Virus record (IMG/VR): IMGVR_UViG_3300020180_000007
Coordinates: 1 to 36,949 of that record
Direction: 5' to 3' (one strand)
From: a virus
Length of the DNA: 36,949 nucleotides
Shown here: piece by piece, positions 2,428-36,298 of the stretch
How positions within the stretch are numbered: position 1 is the first letter of the stretch
How the letters are laid out: every line of letters starts with the position of its first letter
The notes under the pieces: model-generated
Told to the model about the DNA's origin: nothing
What the model saw: the letters and a program-made list of their open reading frames with translations, nothing else
Database searches by the model: none
Program-made: the position numbers and the translations under genes

Positions 2428-2495
2428 CTCCGTCCTGCGTCTCGCCATGCGGCACCGTGAAGCACGAGCAGATGATGATTGGCGGCACGCCATGA
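2424..2495 (+). CDS. Micro-ORF, 23 aa, bridging the zinc protein and the methyltransferase
   Basis: ATG 2424 overlaps the upstream stop and the ORF's own stop overlaps the methyltransferase start at 2492; both junctions are ATGA. The peptide contains CVSPC. Without it there would be a 64-base gap in an operon that otherwise has none, so translation through this ORF may couple the methyltransferase to the upstream genes. Its short length gives no other support. Confidence 0.45.
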   Translation: MTPSCVSPCGTVKHEQMMIGGTP

Positions 2496-3658
2496 CCGCG
2501 CCAGCCCCGCTCCGCATCATCGTCGGCGATTGCCGCGAGGTTCTGCGCTCGCTCGATGCCGAGTCGGTGCAGTGCTGCGTCACGTCGCCGCCGTATTGGA
2601 AGCTGCGCGACTACGGGACCGCAATGTGGGAAGGTGGCGACGAAGCGTGCAACCACTCCCCGGAACAGCGGGGCGGCGGAACCGCAAGTGCTAAAGACTG
2701 CCCGTGCGGTGCGGTCCGAGTTGACTACCAGCTCGGGCTGGAATCCACACCAGAGCAGTACGTCGCTGGAATGGTCGATGTGTTCCGCGAGGTGCGCCGC
2801 GTGCTGCGAAACGACGGCACGCTCTGGTTGAACCTCGGAGACACATACAACGCCTACAACGGCGGAGCCGGTCCAGGCTCGAAGTTGAGTAAGAACAAAA
2901 CAGAACAACGGCCAAAACTTCCAACAGGGTTTGGGCTGCAAGACAAGTCATTAAAGCCAAAGGATCTGATCGGCATCCCCTGGAGGGTTGCACTGGCATT
3001 GCAGGCCGACGGATGGTGGCTGCGACAGGACATCATCTGGTCGAAGCCGAACCCGATGCCGGAGTCTGTGACTGACCGATGCACGAAGGGACACGAGTAC
3101 GTCTTTCTGTTTGCAAAGTCGAAGCGGTACTACTTCGACGCAAAGGCGATCTCCGAGACGGCTGTCACTCCAGACACGGCTGCGTGCAATCAGTGGGGAC
3201 GGCCAGAGGACACACCATTGGGTCAGCGTCCCAACAAGAGGCCCGGACGAAGGGTAAACCCGATCGGCGGCAAAAAGTACAACGACAGTACCAACCCACA
3301 ACACCGGACCAAGAGCAACGACGATTACACGTCGAACGGCCGACGAAACCGCCGCTCCGTTTGGACTATCGCGTCGCAACCGTGCAACGAGGCGCACTTT
3401 GCCACGATGCCGCCCGAGCTGGCGAGGCTCTGCATTCTCGCCGGATGCCCTACGGGCGGGACCGTGATCGACCCGTTCAGTGGCGCGGGGACGACGGGAC
3501 TCGTCGCATCGAATCTCAACCGCAAGTACGTCGGAATCGAACTGAACCCTGGGTATGCGGCAATGTCGCGGCGACGGATTCAGGAGTCGGCTCCGCTTTT
3601 CATCGGACCACAAACACCAACGATGAACAATGACAACAACCACGCCCACTGTGGCTGA
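2492..3658 (+). CDS. Site-specific DNA methyltransferase (N4-cytosine/N6-adenine, beta class)
   Basis: 388 residues from ATG 2492, coupled to the micro-ORF; the open frame extends upstream but gives an implausible N-terminus. The catalytic motif IV TSPPYW is at 31-36 and the S-adenosylmethionine motif I DPFSGAGTTG at about 327-336. The order IV then I defines the beta class. A CxH...CPC cluster between them (about residues 53-73) may bind zinc, as in related phage enzymes. TSPPY is common in m4C enzymes but also occurs in m6A enzymes, so the base cannot be assigned. No restriction endonuclease gene is nearby, so it is an orphan, probably protecting phage DNA from host restriction. Confidence 0.92.
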   Translation: MTAPAPLRIIVGDCREVLRSLDAESVQCCVTSPPYWKLRDYGTAMWEGGDEACNHSPEQRGGGTASAKDCPCGAVRVDYQLGLESTPEQYVAGMVDVFREVRRVLRNDGTLWLNLGDTYNAYNGGAGPGSKLSKNKTEQRPKLPTGFGLQDKSLKPKDLIGIPWRVALALQADGWWLRQDIIWSKPNPMPESVTDRCTKGHEYVFLFAKSKRYYFDAKAISETAVTPDTAACNQWGRPEDTPLGQRPNKRPGRRVNPIGGKKYNDSTNPQHRTKSNDDYTSNGRRNRRSVWTIASQPCNEAHFATMPPELARLCILAGCPTGGTVIDPFSGAGTTGLVASNLNRKYVGIELNPGYAAMSRRRIQESAPLFIGPQTPTMNNDNNHAHCG

Positions 3659-10295: not shown

Positions 10296-11860
10296 TGGCC
10301 AAACGGAAGGCCAAGCCCGTCTTGCTCACGCTCGCAGCCCGAGTGAAGCGAGCGCAGCAGCAACTGCTCCTCGAAGAGACGCAGCTCCGCCGCGACGCCC
10401 TGAAGATGCGGCGCGTCGCGCTGTCGACCTACCGCAGCGCCGAAAAGAACCGCACCAACAGGGACTGGCGAACCAAGCCGTCGAGTGCTGACAGCGCGAT
10501 CCTGCCAGACCTCTCGACTCTGGTCGAGCGGGCCCGAGCAGCCACCCGCGACGACTGCCTCGCCGCGTCGATCAAGCGAGCATTCGTGCGCAACGTCGTC
10601 GGCAAGGGGATCGGCTGCTACCCGGCGACCCTGGCAATCGGCGGCAGCGAGCTGTACGACACACAGGTCGGCCGAGCGTTCTGGGATTGGTCGTCGCGGC
10701 GCGAGCTCTGTGACATGGAGCGCCGCCGCTCCTTCGCGCAGGTCCAGCGCTGGGCGGTCGGCGAGATGATTGAAGCCGGTGACGCCTTCATCGTCATGTC
10801 GGAGGTGACTCAGCCCGACTGGTCCAAGCGACTCGTGCTCCAGCTCGTCGAGAGCGAGCAGCTCGATCGCTACAGGATCACCCACCACGACGACGACGAC
10901 GACATCACCCGCGACGTTCGTGGCGGCGTCGAGGTCGACCAGTATGGGGCCGCGGTCGCCTACTGGATTCACCCGCAGAATCCCCACGACTTCCGGGGCC
11001 GGCAGAGTGGCTTGCGCGTCACCGGCAACGACAGCGTCCGGATCATGGCGGACCGCGTCTGCCATGTCGCGGACCCAGAGCGTGCCCGCCAGACCCGCGG
11101 CGTGACCCGCTTCGCGCCGTCCCTCGGGCGATTGAGAAACCTCGACGACTACGACTTTGCGCAGGTCCTCGCGGCGAAGGCAGAGGCCTGCATCGGTCTG
11201 GTCATCAAGAGCCCGACAACGACACCGAATCTCCTTGGGATGGCTCAGCCGGTCGATGAGGACGGCGGCGCAACTCGCAAGGACACCGACGGGAACGACG
11301 AGCTGGCCATGCAGCCGCTCATGGTGGCGCGGCTCAACGAGGGAGAGGATATCACCGCCTTCACGCCGACCCGCCCGGGCGGCATGTACGAGCCCTTCCA
11401 TCGCACGCAGGCTCGCGTGATCGCCGCAGGCACCGGGATCTCATTCGACCAGGCGATGCGCGACTTCTCGCAGGGCACCTACTCGAGCCAGAGACAGGGC
11501 ATGCTCGAGGACCAGCGCGAGTACGAGCCGCTCCAGCAGCTCGTCATCGACTGTCTCTGCCGGCCGGTCTACGAGGCGTGGCTGAAGATCCAGGCGTGGA
11601 ACTTCGCGCTGCCAATCAGCGCGGCGAACCTGCTCGACCGGTGGTCGGTCTGGTCCTACGCAGACTGGCGACCAGATGGCTGGGCGTGGATCGATCCGAA
11701 GAACGAGGCCGATGCCACCACGCTCGAGCTCGATGCTGGCCTGACAACGAAGGCCCGCGTGCTCGCACGACGCGGAGAGGACTACCGCGAGATCGCACGA
11801 GAGCGAGCCGAGGAGATCGAGTTCGAGCGATCCCTCGGCCTACCCGGAACGATGCCATGA
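10295..11860 (+). CDS. Portal protein (lambda family)
   Basis: 521 residues, similar to lambda GpB (533). The N-terminal TYRSAEKNRTNRDW and SADSAILPDLSTLVERARAATRDD, the central FVRNVVGKGIGCYP, and the FDQAMRDFSQGTYSSQRQGMLEDQREYE segment are characteristic of lambda-family portals. The dodecameric portal forms the DNA entry channel at one capsid vertex. It is coupled to the connector upstream (TGATG) and to the protease/capsid gene downstream (ATGA). Confidence 0.93.
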   Translation: MAKRKAKPVLLTLAARVKRAQQQLLLEETQLRRDALKMRRVALSTYRSAEKNRTNRDWRTKPSSADSAILPDLSTLVERARAATRDDCLAASIKRAFVRNVVGKGIGCYPATLAIGGSELYDTQVGRAFWDWSSRRELCDMERRRSFAQVQRWAVGEMIEAGDAFIVMSEVTQPDWSKRLVLQLVESEQLDRYRITHHDDDDDITRDVRGGVEVDQYGAAVAYWIHPQNPHDFRGRQSGLRVTGNDSVRIMADRVCHVADPERARQTRGVTRFAPSLGRLRNLDDYDFAQVLAAKAEACIGLVIKSPTTTPNLLGMAQPVDEDGGATRKDTDGNDELAMQPLMVARLNEGEDITAFTPTRPGGMYEPFHRTQARVIAAGTGISFDQAMRDFSQGTYSSQRQGMLEDQREYEPLQQLVIDCLCRPVYEAWLKIQAWNFALPISAANLLDRWSVWSYADWRPDGWAWIDPKNEADATTLELDAGLTTKARVLARRGEDYREIARERAEEIEFERSLGLPGTMP

Positions 11861-14112
11861 ACACAACAACCCACATCAACGCCGGAATCCCATCGGTGCA
11901 CGCGATCCGATTGCGAGCATGTGGCGGCGCCGCTGGCCTCCAGGTCGATCGAATCGCTGGTGTGATCCGCAACGTGGCCGTCCTCACGGCCGGATTGACC
12001 AAGACCAGTGGCGGCGGCACCCCGCCATTCATGGTTGATGCGGTTGCGCTGCAGCAGATTGCAGACGCGATCAACAATCCAATGTCCCCCGTCCGCTCCC
12101 GCGTGACCCACGTGGAACTGACAGGCGAGGACGAACTCGACCGCGTCGTTGGCGCGTGGTCGAACGCTCGCATCGTCGGCGACCGTGTCGTCGCCGACTT
12201 CACGCTCGGCGCGTATGCAGCGCACTCCCCCACCGGAAATCTGCGGGAGTTCATCCTCGGGTTGGCCGAGGATGCCTCCGCCTGGGCAGGTGTCTCGATC
12301 TACTCGCCTGATGCCACGCTCGCCCCGGCAGACGTCGAGTCTGGTCGCGTCCTGCGGATCGGGACGCTTCGCGCAGTCGACTGGGTCGGCGAGCCTGCGG
12401 GCAACCCCGAGGGGATGCTCAGCGCCGCCACCACCACCACAGAACACCCGGGTGCCGCGTTGGCGCCCTCGACCGGGGCAGCGATGCCCCAAGGAGTTGT
12501 CATGTTCACTTCTGAGCAGATCGCATATCTGCGGACAATCGGGCTCCCCGAGGGCGCGTCCGACGAGGCAGTCACTGCATTCGTCGCCACGCTCACTCCG
12601 GAGCAGACTGCGGCGCTCAGCGCCGCCACCACCACCACCATCGACAGCGGCGCCGCTGCTGCGCCCGTGTCGGCATCCGCCGCCCCGGCAGGTGGCACCA
12701 CCATCTCGTTGGCCCGGCTCTCCGAGCTCAACGAGATTGCGCAGCTGGCCGGTCTCGGCGGCGACTTCGCCACCGAAATGGCCATCACCGGGAAGACCGT
12801 CCCCGAAGCACGCCAGATCGCGCTCGCGCGCAAGCGAGCCACCGGCGCGACCCGCGACCCGATCGCACTCAGCTCCACCGCCGGAACTCGGGTCAACGTC
12901 GGGCGCTACGAGAAGGGCGCTGCCCTCACCCAGGCTGTCAGTGACGCTCTGCTGCTCCGGGCCCGAGGCGGGCACACCCTGCATCGGTTCACCGACGCCG
13001 AGAACGTCTCGCTTGGCGGCCAGATCGTGCTCAGCGCAGACGGTCGCCCAGAGACCCGGCCGGCCCACGAGCTGGCCAGCCGCTTCCGCGGTCGCCAGCT
13101 GATCGAGATGGGCCGCGAATACCTCGTGCAGCTCGGCTGCCACAAGGCCGCCACGCTCTCGCGCAATGAAGTGACCAGCGTGTTGCTTAACAAGCACAAG
13201 TTCCGCCGCTTCACCGAACTTCACGGTGTGGCTCTGTCACACGCCACCGGCGACTTCCCGTTCATTCTCAGTGATGCAATGGGCAAGTCGATTCGCGCGG
13301 CCTACGTGACCGCTCCGCGGACCTGGGATCGGTGGGCCCGTCGCGCCACGGCTCCAGATTTCAAAGCGATCAGTCGCATGCAGCTCGGTGAGGCCCCGAC
13401 CCTTGAAAGCATGGAGCCGGGGGAGGAATACAAGTACGGCACCATGAGCGAATCACAGGAGACCTACCGCCTTGTGAAGTTCGGGAAGGGGTTGTCGTTC
13501 ACCCGTGAAATGATGATCAATGACGACCTCGGTGCGTTCGACCGCATTCCGACGGCGCTGGGTCGCGCTGGTGTCCGGATCGAGGAGACGTCCGCCTACG
13601 CCATCCTGACGGCTAACGCCGCGATGTCGGACGCGGTGAACCTGTTCGCGACGGGACACTCCAACCTCACCACCGGCGTCCCGAGCGTCACCGCTCTGGG
13701 CGCCATGCGTGCGGCACTGCGGAAGCAGACTCCACTGGGCGGCGATTCGTCCAATCCACTGGATCTCGATCTCGCAGTCATCGTCTGTCCTGCGGCACTG
13801 GAGACCGCGCTTCGGCAGCTCGTCGCCAGTGACGTCGACCCCGGCAAGAACAACGCGACCACGAACCCATTCAAGGGCCTTGAGGTCGTGTCGAGCGCTC
13901 GTCTGGATGCGACGAGTGCGACCGTCTACTACGGGTTCGCGTCCTTCGACGACATCGACACCGTGGAGCTGTCGTTCCTCGAAGGCGAAGAGGGGCTGGT
14001 CGTCGAACAGGAAGAGGACTTCGACACCGACACGATCAAGATCAAGGCGCGACACCACGTCGCCGCCAAGGCCATCGATCACCGCGGCATGGTCCGTTCT
14101 TCCGGCGCCTAA
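11857..14112 (+). CDS. Prohead protease - major capsid protein fusion
   Basis: 751 residues from ATG 11857, which overlaps the portal stop; the longer open frame is a shadow. Residues 1-185 resemble S78-type prohead protease domains, with candidate catalytic H85 (RVTHVEL) and S147 (WAGVSIYS). Residues 186-330 are an Ala/Thr/Pro-rich linker and a helical segment that may act as scaffold. Residues about 345-751 are the capsid protein (LHRFTDAENVSLGG through FTREMMINDDLGAFDRIP). Fused protease-capsid genes are known in tailed phages. An internal ribosome site could give the capsid part separately. A 22-bp direct repeat (near 12418 and 12617) encodes the two LSAATTTT stretches in the linker. Confidence 0.85.
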   Translation: MNTTTHINAGIPSVHAIRLRACGGAAGLQVDRIAGVIRNVAVLTAGLTKTSGGGTPPFMVDAVALQQIADAINNPMSPVRSRVTHVELTGEDELDRVVGAWSNARIVGDRVVADFTLGAYAAHSPTGNLREFILGLAEDASAWAGVSIYSPDATLAPADVESGRVLRIGTLRAVDWVGEPAGNPEGMLSAATTTTEHPGAALAPSTGAAMPQGVVMFTSEQIAYLRTIGLPEGASDEAVTAFVATLTPEQTAALSAATTTTIDSGAAAAPVSASAAPAGGTTISLARLSELNEIAQLAGLGGDFATEMAITGKTVPEARQIALARKRATGATRDPIALSSTAGTRVNVGRYEKGAALTQAVSDALLLRARGGHTLHRFTDAENVSLGGQIVLSADGRPETRPAHELASRFRGRQLIEMGREYLVQLGCHKAATLSRNEVTSVLLNKHKFRRFTELHGVALSHATGDFPFILSDAMGKSIRAAYVTAPRTWDRWARRATAPDFKAISRMQLGEAPTLESMEPGEEYKYGTMSESQETYRLVKFGKGLSFTREMMINDDLGAFDRIPTALGRAGVRIEETSAYAILTANAAMSDAVNLFATGHSNLTTGVPSVTALGAMRAALRKQTPLGGDSSNPLDLDLAVIVCPAALETALRQLVASDVDPGKNNATTNPFKGLEVVSSARLDATSATVYYGFASFDDIDTVELSFLEGEEGLVVEQEEDFDTDTIKIKARHHVAAKAIDHRGMVRSSGA
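12491..12504 (+). promoter_or_regulatory. Internal ribosome binding site and start in the protease-capsid gene
   Basis: AAGGAG (12491-12496) is followed after five bases by ATG 12502, in frame with the fusion (residue 216). It would yield a 536-residue scaffold-plus-capsid protein without the protease. Nested in-frame starts are used by lambda (C and Nu3) to make protease and scaffold in different amounts. The site sits exactly at the domain linker, which supports function. Confidence 0.7.
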
Positions 14113-14195
14113 GCACCACAGCAGATGCGTGGGTGGGCGCCGCGAGGCGCGCCGCCCAACACTGATTCACCGACTACAAACGAAAGGATTTGCAG

Positions 14196-14543
14196 ATGAA
14201 CGATTACCGACACGAGGGCCAGCGCATCAATCGCGTTGTCCCCACCGGCGGAGCCACCGGCGGGGACGTCTTTGCCCTCGCCACTGGAGCCACGGGCTTC
14301 CTTGGTGTCTGGCTGGACACCTACGCCGCCTCCGCTACTGGCGTCCTCCTCATCGAGGGCGTGTTTGAATTGCCGAAGGCGACTGGCGCCAGCACCGACT
14401 TTGCCGTCGGCCAGCTGGTGTACTGGGACGACGCCAGCAACCAGATCGAGCACACCGCGACCGGCAACGTTCGCGCTGGGCGGTGCGTTGAATTGACGAC
14501 CACCTCGGCGACGACCTGCCTGGTCAAGATCAACCTTCCCTGA
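14196..14543 (+). CDS. Head decoration protein (DUF2190-like)
   Basis: 115 residues. ATG 14196 is preceded by GAAAGGA seven bases upstream. The sequence (INRVVPTGGATGGDVFALATG, LLIEGVFELPKATGASTDFAVGQLVYWDD, VRAGRCVELTTTSATTCLVKINLP) matches the DUF2190 family of small beta-rich proteins found just after capsid genes in phages, thought to trim or stabilise the capsid surface. The gap from 14113 to 14195 separates it from the capsid gene, and a strong hairpin follows it. Confidence 0.8.
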   Translation: MNDYRHEGQRINRVVPTGGATGGDVFALATGATGFLGVWLDTYAASATGVLLIEGVFELPKATGASTDFAVGQLVYWDDASNQIEHTATGNVRAGRCVELTTTSATTCLVKINLP

Positions 14544-14557
14544 TTCACTCTCCTCCA

Positions 14558-14589
14558 CGGACCGAGGCGCGGACACGCACCTCGGTCCG
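14558..14589 (+). terminator. Hairpin after the decoration gene
   Basis: Arms CGGACCGAGG (14558-14567) and CCTCGGTCCG (14580-14589) pair perfectly over a 12-base loop. Only a weak T-rich end (cttgc) follows, so it may be an inefficient terminator that lowers expression of the sugar genes relative to the abundant head proteins. Confidence 0.6.
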
Positions 14590-14594
14590 CTTGC

Positions 14595-15143
14595 ATGCTG
14601 GTCTCCCTCCTGAGCTGCGGTCCTTCGCTCTGCGCGTTCGATGACGCGCGGCGCGGTGATCTCGTCATCGGGGTCAACGGCGCGGCATGTCGGCACGCCT
14701 GCGACTGGTGGAGTATCGGCGACGACCAGACCATCCTGCGGCACTCACTCGACGCCGATGATCCAGTCGTCGGACGTCCGCACGTCTCGACCATGTCCCC
14801 ATCGATGCACCGCATCAAGGAGAGCTATCCGGCGGTGCACGCACATCGGGACTGGATCACATGGGAGCAGCTCCGCGACTCGGTCAGCGCTCCCCATAGC
14901 GGCTGGGATCAGTGGTCCGCCCCTGCGGCCCTGGTCCTCGCCGTGCACCTCGGCGCGACCACGATCGCAGTCTTTGGTGTCGACATGATCGGCTCCGCCG
15001 ACTTCGCCGGCCGGGCCCACAAGCGGTTCAACGAGCAGCGATGGGTCCGTGAGCGAAGGTCATGGGACAGTGCCTTGACTCTGTGCGGCGCCGCCGGCGT
15101 GACCGTGCATCGGTCACCTCTGTCGGAGGAGGTGGCGACATGA
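14595..15143 (+). CDS. MAF/DUF115-like sugar transferase-type protein
   Basis: 182 residues. The N-terminus SLLSCGPSLCAFDDARRGDLVIGVNG has the GPS motif and strand order of the MAF_flag10/DUF115 family, some members of which attach nonulosonic acids to flagellins. The C-terminal half has ALVLAVHLGATTIAVFGVDMIG, also typical of that family. The next gene makes an activated sugar of just this class, so the two likely act together: one makes a CMP-sugar, the other transfers it. A target among virion proteins or the host envelope is inference. It is shorter than cellular MAF proteins. No clear ribosome site precedes ATG 14595. Confidence 0.6.
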   Translation: MLVSLLSCGPSLCAFDDARRGDLVIGVNGAACRHACDWWSIGDDQTILRHSLDADDPVVGRPHVSTMSPSMHRIKESYPAVHAHRDWITWEQLRDSVSAPHSGWDQWSAPAALVLAVHLGATTIAVFGVDMIGSADFAGRAHKRFNEQRWVRERRSWDSALTLCGAAGVTVHRSPLSEEVAT

Positions 15144-15832
15144 GCGCAATCGCCGTCGTCGTCGCGCGCGCAGGAAGCAGCAGGGTGCCAAGGAAGGCAC
15201 TGCGGACGTTTGCGGGCACGACGCTGGTGGGCTGGGCCGTGGAGCGTCTCCTTGATTCAGAGGCGTTCAGGGAGGTCTACGTCGGATCAGACGGGGACGA
15301 GATCCTGGCCGAGGCTGAGCGGCACGGTGCGATCGCGATCAAGCGCGACGACTACCACTGCGACGAAACCCGGTGCTCGGCGAACGAGATGATCGGCGAC
15401 ATGATGGATCGTCTCTCCGACGTCAGTCTGTCTGAGACGGTGTGCTGGGCCCACCCGACAAACCCACTGGTCCTGCCATCCACCTACGCCCGGGCCGTCG
15501 AGGTCTTCGAGAGTGACGAGACCGACGCAGACTCCCTGGTCTCGGTGGGCCCGGTGCAGCGACACGCATGGTTCCGCGGCCGGCCCCTCAATCACGATCC
15601 ACGCAGCCCACGGCACCAGCTTGCGGGCGAGCTCGAACCCATCCAGTTTCAGGACGGCGCGATCTTCATCCAGACCAGAATGGCGATGGCGCAGAACTGT
15701 TACTTCCACGGAACGACTCCACTGCTCTTTGAAATCGATTCGACGGAGGGCTTCGACGTTGACACCGAAGCGGATCTGCGGATGGCCGCCTTCTTGCTCG
15801 CTGAGAGGGAGGCCGCATGTCATTCTCGTTGA
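15140..15832 (+). CDS. CMP-sugar cytidylyltransferase (acylneuraminate/pseudaminate/Kdo type)
   Basis: 230 residues from ATG 15140, preceded by GGAGGAGG and overlapping the previous stop. The nucleotide-binding motif ARAGSSRVPRK is at 9-19, HPTNPLVLPSTYARAVEVF follows in the middle, and the C-terminal IDSTEGFDVDTEADLRMA is the family's metal/sugar region. Enzymes of this fold use CTP to activate nonulosonic acids or Kdo as CMP-sugars in the cytoplasm. The sugar substrate cannot be told. No genes for making the sugar are present, so it would draw on host precursor. It is placed among virion genes with a MAF-like partner. Confidence 0.85.
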   Translation: MSAIAVVVARAGSSRVPRKALRTFAGTTLVGWAVERLLDSEAFREVYVGSDGDEILAEAERHGAIAIKRDDYHCDETRCSANEMIGDMMDRLSDVSLSETVCWAHPTNPLVLPSTYARAVEVFESDETDADSLVSVGPVQRHAWFRGRPLNHDPRSPRHQLAGELEPIQFQDGAIFIQTRMAMAQNCYFHGTTPLLFEIDSTEGFDVDTEADLRMAAFLLAEREAACHSR

Positions 15833-16170
15833 CCGCCCACAACACCACTTACCTCTACCACTTCGGGGAGGCCGTGACGTTCCGGCGTCCGGGCATGGCG
15901 GACCGCGACATCGTCGCCGTCGTCAACCGCGGCGAGCCGGTGGCGATGCAGGAAAACGGCCTGCTGCTCACCGCACAACTGACCGTATGGGTGCGCAACT
16001 CACAGACCTCGACCACCGACGACACATACGGCGGCATCAGCGCCACCGAGCTGGACACCACCCGCGACACACTGTCACTCCCGCTTCGCGCGGGCGGTCT
16101 CGCCACCGAGCGACGCATCATCGCCATCATCGAACAGGACGCCGGCGGGCTCCTCCTGGGGGTCGCATGA
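15817..16170 (+). CDS. Head-tail joining protein (candidate)
   Basis: 117 residues; GGGAGG lies four bases before ATG 15817, inside the end of the cytidylyltransferase gene. Beta-rich sequence with FGEAVTFRRPGMADRDIVAVVNR at the start. Size and order (after decoration protein, before a gpU-like gene and the tail tube) fit a gpFII-like or similar head completion protein. No diagnostic motif was recognised; the call rests mostly on gene order. Confidence 0.55.
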   Translation: MSFSLTAHNTTYLYHFGEAVTFRRPGMADRDIVAVVNRGEPVAMQENGLLLTAQLTVWVRNSQTSTTDDTYGGISATELDTTRDTLSLPLRAGGLATERRIIAIIEQDAGGLLLGVA

Positions 16171-30414: not shown

Positions 30415-30813
30415 ATGCGACCATACGCCGAACACAGCACGGAAGCGAGCATGAATGGTGCTGTGCGTAGTGCTTTCGGGCGTTCACCCGACGCCGCGGC
30501 CGAGGCTCGATCAGCCGCATCCATGATCAGCGATCAGCCTCCACCGGAGCCGGCGGAGCATGCTGGCACCCCGACGACCCCTCCTCCCGCAGGGGGCGGC
30601 GGCGTCACAACGCCTCGCCCCCTCACCGTCTCCTTCCACCACCGCCGGCGAACGCGCAGCGCCGGCGGGGTTCCATCCCGCGCAGCAAGCGAGGCCACTC
30701 ATGCGGTTTCTGGCTTGGATCCTGCCCTTTTTCATCGGAGATCAGTTCCCCCCGGACTGACCCTTCTCACGCCGCGTCCGTGGAACACGGACGCGGCGCC
30801 CTATGCGGGGTAG
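30415..30813 (+). CDS. Doubtful ORF, 132 aa, disordered
   Basis: GAGG lies six bases before ATG 30415 and an operator-like dyad is just upstream, but the product is Pro/Ala/Arg-rich with no structure, and the frame runs through the hairpin and into the tRNA. The first 60 codons might be translated. It is listed because the stretch 30415-30700 has no better gene. Confidence 0.3.
   Translation: MRPYAEHSTEASMNGAVRSAFGRSPDAAAEARSAASMISDQPPPEPAEHAGTPTTPPPAGGGGVTTPRPLTVSFHHRRRTRSAGGVPSRAASEATHAVSGLDPALFHRRSVPPGLTLLTPRPWNTDAAPYAG
30701..30760 (+). CDS. Micro-ORF: 19-residue hydrophobic peptide
   Basis: ATG 30701 with GAGG six bases upstream. The peptide MRFLAWILPFFIGDQFPPD is a single short membrane-type helix. 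It lies just before the hairpin and tRNA-Trp. It could be a small toxin-like or regulatory peptide; evidence is only the ribosome site and composition. Confidence 0.35.
   Translation: MRFLAWILPFFIGDQFPPD
30771..30797 (+). terminator. Perfect 12-bp hairpin before the tRNA
   Basis: GCCGCGTCCGTG (30771-30782) pairs with CACGGACGCGGC (30786-30797) over a GAA loop. No T-run follows. It may insulate the tRNA from upstream transcription or act in processing its 5' end, which begins seven bases later. Confidence 0.65.
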
Positions 30814-30875
30814 AGCAGCAGCAGCTCACCGGCCTCCAAGGCCGGAGGTCGCAGGTGCGAGTCCTGCCCCCGCGT
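30804..30875 (+). tRNA. tRNA-Trp (anticodon CCA)
   Basis: 72 bases fold into a cloverleaf. The acceptor TGCGGGG pairs with CCCCGCG (30868-30874), the first pair being T-G. D stem GAGC/GCTC, anticodon stem CCGGC/GCCGG with loop CTCCAAG (anticodon 30836-30838), variable loop AGGTC, T stem GCAGG/CCTGC. The CACCGG.CTCCAA core matches bacterial tRNA-Trp. Oddities: the D loop AGCAGCA lacks the GG pair, the T loop is TGCGAGT instead of TTCGAnT, and CCA is not encoded. These weaken the D loop-T loop contact, so it may be degenerating or need special partners. CCA reads UGG only, so it is not a UGA-recoding tRNA. Confidence 0.8.
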
Positions 30876-30880
30876 TTCAT

Positions 30881-34194: not shown

Positions 34195-34493
34195 TGTCGT
34201 CGAGATCATCCACCATCCAGATCCCGCCCTCCGATTCTCTCCCACTGGAGCTGGCGGTGGAGGACCGCGACCTTCTCATGTGGGACGCGGAGCGGCTGGC
34301 CAGGCACATGCTGGTCAGCGTGACGAAGCTCGCAGAGATGCGACGTGCCGGGCTGATCATCGATCCCGCCATCGAGGTCGGCCGGATCCTCCGGTGGAGC
34401 CGAGCGGAGCTCGAGGCCTGGGCCCTCGCTGGTAGTCCTCCTGCCGACGATTGGCGCCGCATGCGAGCCACCACCGGGAGGACCCGCAAGTGA
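34194..34493 (+). CDS. Excisionase-like (AlpA/HTH_17) recombination directionality factor
   Basis: 99 residues; its start overlaps the previous stop (TGATG). DRDLLMWDAERLARHMLVSVTKLAEMRRAGLI followed by VGRILRWSRAELEAWALAG is the excisionase-type winged helix. Such small proteins bend attP and turn an integrase toward excision. It lies immediately upstream of the integrase and overlaps it (GTGA), so the two are made together. Confidence 0.8.
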   Translation: MSSRSSTIQIPPSDSLPLELAVEDRDLLMWDAERLARHMLVSVTKLAEMRRAGLIIDPAIEVGRILRWSRAELEAWALAGSPPADDWRRMRATTGRTRK

Positions 34494-36298
34494 GCGCGAA
34501 GCGTCGCACCAGAGACGGCAAGGCCTACCGCCTCAGCGGGCGTGAGGACGGCCCCTGGTACGCCGACGCCTACGACCAGCTTCGGCGGCGCTGGATGCGG
34601 CGCTCAACTCGGGTGACCCATCAGCGACCGGCCAATCGGATTGCGTCGCGGTGGCTGGAGGAGGGCGAGGCGATGGCGGCTGGTGCGTCGTCGCAGCCGG
34701 CGGGATCCCGGGTCGACGTCGGAGTCGCCGAAAACGGCACACCGCTGTCACCGATTCTCGCCGCGCTCGCCAAGTTCATCGACGCGAAGCGCCGCTCGGA
34801 GTCAGCCCCATCACCACGGCACCTCCAGGAGACGCGGCGCCGCCTCGAGCGGGTGATCCTCGCTGTCAAGTGGGAGCATGTCGCGGACATCGAGAGGGAG
34901 AAGCTCCTCGAGGGGATCGAGCAGGTGGCCACGGAGTCGGAAGCCACCTTCTCCGCCCGCACAAAGAACGCCTACCGGGCGGCATGGCGCTCTTTCACGT
35001 CGTGGCTCGTGGACACCGACCGTGCCCCGCTCGACCCGCTGCGCCGCCTGGCGAAGTGGCGGGTGGACGGCACCGAGACCTTCCGGCGCCTGGCCTACAC
35101 CCGGGCCGACGTCGCGAAGCTGATTGCCCACACGACCCGCAGCGCTCCGGCGTTCGATCTGCCTGGATCGGATCGGGCGATGCTCTATCTCGTCGCCCTG
35201 GCCACCGGCTTCAGGGTGAGCGAGCTGGCGAGCCTCACCCCCTCCTCCTTTGATCTCGCCGCGCAGACGCCCACGGTCACACTGCGCGGACGGAACGCCA
35301 AGAACAATCGCGACGTCGAGCAGCCGCTTGTGCCTCGAGGACTGCCGGAGATGCGTGTGGTGGTCGAGCGGCTCAGGGTGTGGCTGCGTGACCGCGACAG
35401 GCACACTCCATGCTGGCGGATGGCTGACTGGGCGTACGCGGCGACGATGCTGCGGCTGGACCTGGCTGCGGCCGGGGTCGATCTGCCCCGTGGCGTGTAC
35501 GACCGTGCTGACTTCCATTCGTTGCGTGGCACGCTCGGCACATGGCTGGCCCGTGCCGGCGTCTCGACGCAGTTCGCCCAGCGGATTCTGCGTCACAGCG
35601 ACCCAGCGTTGACGGCCAAGTACTACACCAGGCTCGGCGCCGAGGAGATGGCTTCCGGCCTCGACCAGATTGTCCAGACCCCATTGCTTGAGGAGCAGTC
35701 ACTGATGACCGAGGAGCCGACGATGGCAGCGCGTGGCGAGGAGTGTCGAGGCGATCAGCCAGCACCAGAATCAGCGCATGAGGACGGATCAGTCAGTAGT
35801 GAGCGCTGCGCAATTAGTGCGCAGCCTGACAACGCCCGACGAGTCCCGATACGCCCCGATACGACGAGTGAGGGTTTCGATAGGGGTGCGGCCCCGGGGT
35901 CTGATGATGGTGCACGCGGTTCGCTCGCGAGTCCCGACGAGTCCCGACAAGTCCCGATGAGTCCCGATACGACGAATGCCCCGTCAAGGACTCGAACCTT
36001 GAACCCGCTGATTAAGAGTGCGCGACCTACTGATTCTAACTCAGTGGCCCAGCAGGTCCTTGCGCATGATGATGGCGCCAGCGCTGCGCACATTGTGCGC
36101 AGCGCTGCAACGGACGCGGAAGATCGCCGCGAACCCCCCTTCCTACCCGACGATGAGGTCGATCTCGCTGAGGCCCTGGGGCTGGCGGAGGCTGAACTCG
36201 GGCGACTCATCGAGACCGACCTCGACGCCGTCACCCGCTCCCCCGCCGGAGTGCGGCAGGCAGCCGTCACCCGCTCCGCACGGGGAGGTGAGGCATGA
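34490..36298 (+). CDS. int: Tyrosine integrase with attP in its 3' coding region
   Basis: GTG 34490 with GGGAGGA at 34476-34482, overlapping the excisionase stop; 602 residues. A SAM-like core-binding domain (about 85-190) is followed by the catalytic domain with R242 (TGFRVSEL), H343-x-x-R346 (HSLR), H369 (LRHSDPA) and catalytic Y378 (KYYTRL). Residues 395-602 are an unusual disordered, acidic extension. Within it, residues about 496-510 (NAPSRTRTLNPLIKS) are the antisense translation of a tRNA-Lys 3' half, the attP core, and the preceding PDES/PDTT segments are encoded by 10-bp repeats. Integration would replace the last about 90 residues by host-encoded ones or a stop. Confidence 0.93.
   Translation: MSAKRRTRDGKAYRLSGREDGPWYADAYDQLRRRWMRRSTRVTHQRPANRIASRWLEEGEAMAAGASSQPAGSRVDVGVAENGTPLSPILAALAKFIDAKRRSESAPSPRHLQETRRRLERVILAVKWEHVADIEREKLLEGIEQVATESEATFSARTKNAYRAAWRSFTSWLVDTDRAPLDPLRRLAKWRVDGTETFRRLAYTRADVAKLIAHTTRSAPAFDLPGSDRAMLYLVALATGFRVSELASLTPSSFDLAAQTPTVTLRGRNAKNNRDVEQPLVPRGLPEMRVVVERLRVWLRDRDRHTPCWRMADWAYAATMLRLDLAAAGVDLPRGVYDRADFHSLRGTLGTWLARAGVSTQFAQRILRHSDPALTAKYYTRLGAEEMASGLDQIVQTPLLEEQSLMTEEPTMAARGEECRGDQPAPESAHEDGSVSSERCAISAQPDNARRVPIRPDTTSEGFDRGAAPGSDDGARGSLASPDESRQVPMSPDTTNAPSRTRTLNPLIKSARPTDSNSVAQQVLAHDDGASAAHIVRSAATDAEDRREPPFLPDDEVDLAEALGLAEAELGRLIETDLDAVTRSPAGVRQAAVTRSARGGEA
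35805..36107. other. attP: attP region: dyads and arm-type repeats around the core
   Basis: Two dyads of the form GCTGCGCA-5-TGCGCAGC flank the core: 35805-35825 (8-bp arms) and 36079-36107 (12-bp arms). Between the left dyad and the core are direct 10-bp repeats: about three at 35833-35862 and four in perfect tandem at 35931-35970 (GTCCCGAYRA/GTCCCGATAC). The 10-bp period places them on one face of the helix, as expected for integrase arm sites. A further hairpin ACTGA-7-TCAGT lies at 36029-36045. Confidence 0.75.
35977..36019 (-). other. attP core: 3' half of a tRNA-Lys(CUU) gene
   Basis: Read on the minus strand, 43 bases match tRNA-Lys from position 31 to 73: A, loop CTCTTAA (anticodon CTT), TCAGC, GGGTT, T arm CAAGG-TTCGAGT-CCTTG, acceptor strand ACGGGGC and discriminator A. 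No 5' half follows upstream (the sequence changes to CGCGC), so it is not a tRNA gene. Phages that integrate at tRNA genes carry just such a 3' end to restore the host gene. Confidence 0.85.

Follow-up and report, generated by a model that had tools for sequence, protein, structure and literature searches.

Glycosylation of virions is known from mycobacteriophages (Freeman et al., 2023, cited in PMC13313380 and PMC12619734). According to these two papers, a phage glycosyltransferase and a methyltransferase are used there, with capsid and tail-tube subunits as acceptors. Transferases of the Maf type (PF01973, solved structure 5mu5) act in the cytoplasm, where CMP-ulosonic acid is transferred to a self-assembling surface protein. 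Maf consists of three domains, the central one of which resembles CstII (PMC11339370); CstI and CstII of Campylobacter jejuni, which use CMP-sugar donors, belong to family GT42. In the CMP-NeuAc synthetase of N. meningitidis, Arg12, Lys21, Asp209 and Asp211 have been shown or cited as important (PMC2901514). Here, we describe a phage gene pair that joins a synthetase of this class to a small protein with a predicted Maf/GT42-like fold.

The window, that is, the whole stretch of DNA analyzed, is a viral record of 36,949 bases. Its first 60 bases are identical to its last 60 bases, so the record is probably a complete genome. Since it encodes a terminase, a portal, a fused protease/capsid protein, a decoration protein and an integrase (34451–36298; phrog_1, 8.5e-30), we regard it as a temperate tailed phage of bacteria. 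The record also carries a tRNA-Trp (cca) gene at 30803–30876 and, at 2447–3658, an N6/N4 DNA methylase (PF01555, 9.6e-49); this temperate phage thus brings a DNA methylase of its own. In the head block, all on the + strand, the head maturation protease and the major capsid protein share one reading frame (11842–14112; phrog_4523, 4e-108; PF25209), followed by the head decoration (cement) protein (14190–14543; PF09956, 1.1e-17; phrog_122, 4.9e-18). The gene pair comes next and then a gene at 15817–16170 (+), which is head-tail attachment-like by position and shows weak similarity to its counterparts in L020 and L022. The initial annotation had placed the pair between the decoration and head-tail joining genes: profiles confirm the upstream neighbor, while the “head-tail joining” label of the downstream one found no support in Pfam or PHROGs profile searches.

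The second gene of the pair (15140–15832, +) encodes a CMP-sugar (ulosonic acid) synthetase-like cytidylyltransferase of 230 aa. It scores 57.1 bits against PF02348 (curated cut-off 22.6), and its sequence matches in the PDB are CMP-NeuAc synthetases (1eyr, E 8.8e-19), with which the profile search agrees. The AlphaFold (AF2) model, obtained with 20 relatives in the alignment, has a pLDDT of 93.9, and Foldseek matched it to the N. meningitidis CMP-NeuAc synthetase 1eyr (E 7.9e-20) and to the CMP-Kdn synthetase 9t4z (TMq 0.82). According to the sequence alignment with 1eyr, R10, K19, D206 and D208 of the phage protein correspond to R12, K21, D209 and D211 of the N. meningitidis enzyme. The CMP-ulosonate-class cytidylyltransferase named in the initial annotation is thus borne out by PF02348, the PDB sequence matches and Foldseek, and chemistry of this class is well supported as a prediction from fold and catalytic residues. 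By class, the substrate should be an acidic ulosonic acid (nonulosonic acid, Kdo or other). The sugar-contacting Gln104 is replaced with His105 in the phage protein, a residue invariant in the subfamily (20/20 members), so the substrate may differ from Neu5Ac. Pseudaminic acid and Kdo were rejected as NCBIfam-based assignments since the scores fall under the cut-offs; for the PseF equivalog TIGR03584, 80 bits were obtained against a cut-off of 205.7. The synthetase has no direct match among 50,697 phage records.

The first gene (14595–15143, +) encodes the 182-aa GPSL protein, which we annotate, from the ORF, the family alignment, AF2, Foldseek and VIA, as a putative small stand-alone GT42/Maf-like CMP-sugar transferase. 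At the sequence level, no Pfam match was found, PHROGs gave weak matches of which none is firm (phrog_2111, without assigned function, at 0.0015), and matches in the PDB were at chance level only. PF01973 was not matched at E 1 by the protein itself but by 2 of 18 relatives (best 0.011). Neither the protein nor its relatives have direct matches among the 50,697 phage records, and a first scan of genome contigs with a narrow alignment found none. The 18 relatives have in common [IL]L[CS]xGPSL, IxVNxA and an Asp; G9, P10, I25, V27, N28, A30, D43 and G128 are invariant in the family alignment. One relative matches the alpha-2,3-sialyltransferase family phrog_4603 (1.2e-4; family best 1.1e-5).

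The AF2 model of the GPSL protein is a single domain with a pLDDT of 85.4, in which the loop of residues 131–150 is poorly predicted. In a Foldseek search of the PDB, CstII chains were the only matches with E<1e-3 (E 4.4e-5, probability 1.00), CstI came next (1.8e-3), and 10/10 matches to E 2e-3 are Campylobacter sialyltransferases. VIA-align ranked Maf 5mu5 first (Z 11.5, rmsd 3.7, 157 aligned), followed by SteA (10.8), CstI (10.7) and the M. jannaschii HPPK 8sd5 (10.3), scores that lie close together; CstII and the P. multocida sialyltransferase also reach Z 10–11. HPPK 8sd5 is absent from the Foldseek matches listed for this model. No invariant His, the candidate general base as in GT42, is present in the family alignment; His142 of the phage protein is in a loop of pLDDT ~55–65 and is missing from several relatives. 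We therefore divide the earlier description of this partner as “MAF/DUF115-like”: the fold stands by both Foldseek and VIA-align, with Maf ranked first by the latter, while family membership does not hold, with no PF01973 match and a single 182-aa domain. The refuting outcome named along with the initial annotation, a partner lacking the MAF-like fold, was thus looked for in the model and not observed. In our models, the GPSL protein is Maf-like in fold and probably in chemistry, not a Maf by family membership.

The two genes together cover exactly the span annotated initially, 14595–15832. They overlap by an ATGA stop/start (15140–15143, +), which makes translational coupling of the GPSL gene and the synthetase likely from the sequence. 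A longer ORF for the synthetase would begin at 15062 (256 aa), but ATG 15140 (230 aa) is preferred because the alignment of the relatives begins at that Met. At its 3′ end, the synthetase overlaps the downstream gene by 16 nt (15817–15832). Selection was estimated by comparing the pair with one sibling, 97–98% identical. The GPSL gene differs by 10 synonymous and 5 nonsynonymous changes (0.074/0.012 per site) and the synthetase gene by 14 and 5 (0.084/0.0095 per site). As the changes are mostly synonymous, both genes are real and under purifying selection.

A hairpin with a 10-bp outer stem, detected by folding against shuffles, lies downstream of the decoration gene (14558–14589, +) and stops 5 nt ahead of the GPSL start codon. 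It is modestly above chance (z −1.86; 9/200 shuffles fold equally well) and is retained in the sibling L002, the sole sequence compared. A terminator was ruled out, as there is no T-run. Such proximity to the start codon would let the hairpin hinder ribosome binding. For the low expression that, in the initial annotation, it may cause, the presence of the hairpin is the one supporting observation. There is no room for it in L011 and L004, whose cassette genes directly abut their neighbors. A simple scan detected no promoter-like site near the pair.

A search for further phages carrying the pair at this position, suggested along with the initial annotation, identified the sibling (L002/L003) and five further lineages (L004, L006, L011, L021 and L049). 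The order is transferase–synthetase in this phage, L011, L021 and L049, and inverted in L004 and L006. The portals of these lineages are 20–42% identical to that of this phage, and in the tree the synthetases of the slot group together (SH-aLRT 88). L049 lies in a 181-kb contig of a Phycisphaeraceae (Planctomycetota) genome, where portal, capsid, decoration, transferase and synthetase genes follow in order; because apparent host genes, judged by eye, flank both sides, it is probably a prophage. GPSL relatives were found in 5/294 Planctomycetota genomes only, so GPSL is not a host housekeeping gene in this phylum.

The pair has companions in the slot: a TylF methyltransferase (L004), Methyltransf_24 (L021, L049) and a sulfotransferase (L011). 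In L016, L020 and L026, the GPSL protein occupies the slot without a synthetase, alone in L020, beside a Nucleotid_trans glycosyltransferase-like gene in L016 and with a gene that is glycosyltransferase-like by reading in L026; GPSL without synthetase is also found in L030 and other phages. Because of these phages, use of a CMP-sugar is not proven family-wide. More generally, the slot, with decoration/capsid genes on one side and head-tail genes on the other, carries variable sugar-tailoring cargo (L004, L011, L016, L020, L021, L026, L049), which comprises methyltransferase, sulfotransferase, glycosyltransferase-like and GPSL genes.

Outside the slot, members of the synthetase subfamily adjoin MptE/GT42-like proteins in phages L072/L074 and L075 and in the bacterium L035. 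The partner in L075 matches PF01973 at 3.4e-8, and the bacterial partners match it at 1.1e-4 (L035) and 1.7e-3 (L038, where one gene lies between partner and synthetase); for these bacterial partners, hhalign against shuffles likewise supports the pairing. Neighbors in L076/L077 and L040 that look GPSL-like by eye did no better than shuffles and were not counted as pairs. The synthetase is present with no recognized GPSL neighbor in L067 and L071/L078/L079. Nothing argues more strongly for a single pathway shared by the GPSL protein and the synthetase than the recurrence of their pairing in several backgrounds.

Other genes were observed around these synthetases. A small cupin-like gene lies directly 3′ of the synthetase in L071, L072, L074, L078 and L079 (Cupin_2, 8e-4, in L072; by reading in the other four). 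HMGL-like (DRE-TIM) aldolases are found near bacterial synthetase relatives, by PF00682 in L041 and L042 and by reading in L038, L043 and L045; in L041, a HAD phosphatase is present as well, and no NeuB match was obtained in the L041 genome. These aldolase-linked loci may provide a CMP-activated ulosonic acid by a route not yet described. In the Pelagibacteraceae L046, L047 and L048, synthetase relatives lie in a conserved neighborhood with two further genes.

Taken together, we think it fairly probable that the pair is a late-expressed two-gene cassette for attaching an acidic 3-deoxy-ulosonic sugar to a virion protein. The free sugar would be supplied by the host, as no recognized synthase gene is present: NeuB was found in none of the eight viral records searched, while the genome holding L049 has NeuB. 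For several of the viral records this absence is weak evidence because they are fragments, the record of this phage being probably complete. The synthetase would then couple the sugar to CTP, giving the CMP-sugar. The GPSL protein, a minimal domain of CstII/Maf-central fold, is expected to bind it through the GPSL/VN/D site and to transfer the sugar, in the cytoplasm, either directly onto a protein or onto a sugar that the protein already carries. The acceptor would be a structural subunit (capsid, decoration or tail) encoded in the same block; a virion acceptor is most likely given the head-block site, the gene overlaps, the lack of a promoter-like site of its own and the glycan-tailoring companions. 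In related phages, the O-methyltransferase, sulfotransferase and glycosyltransferase added in the slot could provide further tailoring, similar to the virion-glycan cassettes of mycobacteriophages. Since the same pair occupies the same slot in distantly related phages, decoration of the virion with a host acidic sugar is probable.

The main rival to virion glycosylation places the modification on the surface of the host: by altering lipopolysaccharide, S-layer or capsule, the pair would serve superinfection exclusion or lysogenic conversion. Modification of host glycans by phage-encoded enzymes is well known. One example is given in PMC6586298. The integrase marks this phage as temperate, so conversion is conceivable, and bacterial relatives of the synthetase lie in apparent surface-polysaccharide clusters beside glycosyltransferases. 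Yet, the two genes are embedded in the head block, overlap each other and the downstream gene, and gave no promoter-like site in the simple scan of their surroundings; at such a location, silence would be expected in the lysogen. The slot is also retained in diverged phages. We consider this explanation rather unlikely. Modification of the phage DNA itself with a sugar built by the pair is far less plausible still, and we give it very little weight. DNA glycosylation is known in phages (as cited in PMC12619734), and this phage encodes the DNA methylase mentioned above. However, the head-block site is far from the DNA genes, and genes for modified-base synthesis were not noticed. No sialyltransferase-fold enzyme is known to act on DNA, which also speaks against this explanation.

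The role of the GPSL protein could also be different: with the same fold but without use of a CMP-sugar, it might, for example, be a pyrophosphokinase of the MptE type or have a binding function, and the synthetase would serve a host transferase. HPPK and SteA lie within ~1 Z of Maf, some phages carry the GPSL gene but not the synthetase, and the family lacks an invariant His, all of which agree with such a role. It is nevertheless improbable: at E<1e-3, Foldseek returns sialyltransferases only, a relative matches the alpha-2,3-sialyltransferase phrog_4603, and the pairing with a CMP-sugar synthetase is repeated in unrelated phages and bacteria.

Our preferred explanation, virion glycosylation, leads to a broader proposal which we advance as possible rather than expected: a group of temperate phages that have diverged from one another, and of which one or more infect Planctomycetota, may keep two enzymes in a fixed head-block slot to coat their virions with an acidic ulosonic sugar taken from the host. 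The enzymes would be an unusually small single-domain Maf/GT42-type transferase and a cytidylyltransferase of the subfamily with the Gln to His replacement, the sugar of which has not been described. Virion glycosylation as such is known from mycobacteriophages; for a CMP-activated acidic sugar placed on particles by a single-domain sialyltransferase-fold enzyme, and for phage-encoded ulosonate transfer to virions, no description was found in the literature searched. If true, the charge and recognition of the particles would change, and glycoengineering would gain, in the GPSL protein, a compact enzyme for protein sialylation. The slot is a marker for locating further virion-tailoring genes, and one member probably has its host in Planctomycetota, whose phages are little studied.

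Compared with the known systems, the phage synthetase has the fold and the Arg, Lys, Asp and Asp residues in common with synthetases of the NeuA/PseF/KdsB types (CMP-NeuAc/CMP-Kdn/CMP-Pse), from which it differs by its ~27% identity and by the His in place of Gln104. The GPSL protein shares its fold with CstI and CstII, but it is 12–14% identical to them, shorter and without a family-invariant His. With Maf it has the transferase-domain fold in common, and a cytoplasmic transfer to a self-assembling surface protein is likewise expected; however, it has 182 aa against 632 in the solved Maf chain, lacks the N- and C-terminal domains, does not match the Maf profile and has no flagellin acceptor in sight. 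The passages on mycobacteriophages in PMC13313380 and PMC12619734 mention no CMP-sugar synthetase or sialyltransferase-fold enzyme, in which those systems differ from this pair, while the virion-glycan enzymes of actinobacteriophages described in the two papers resemble the slot companions reported here.
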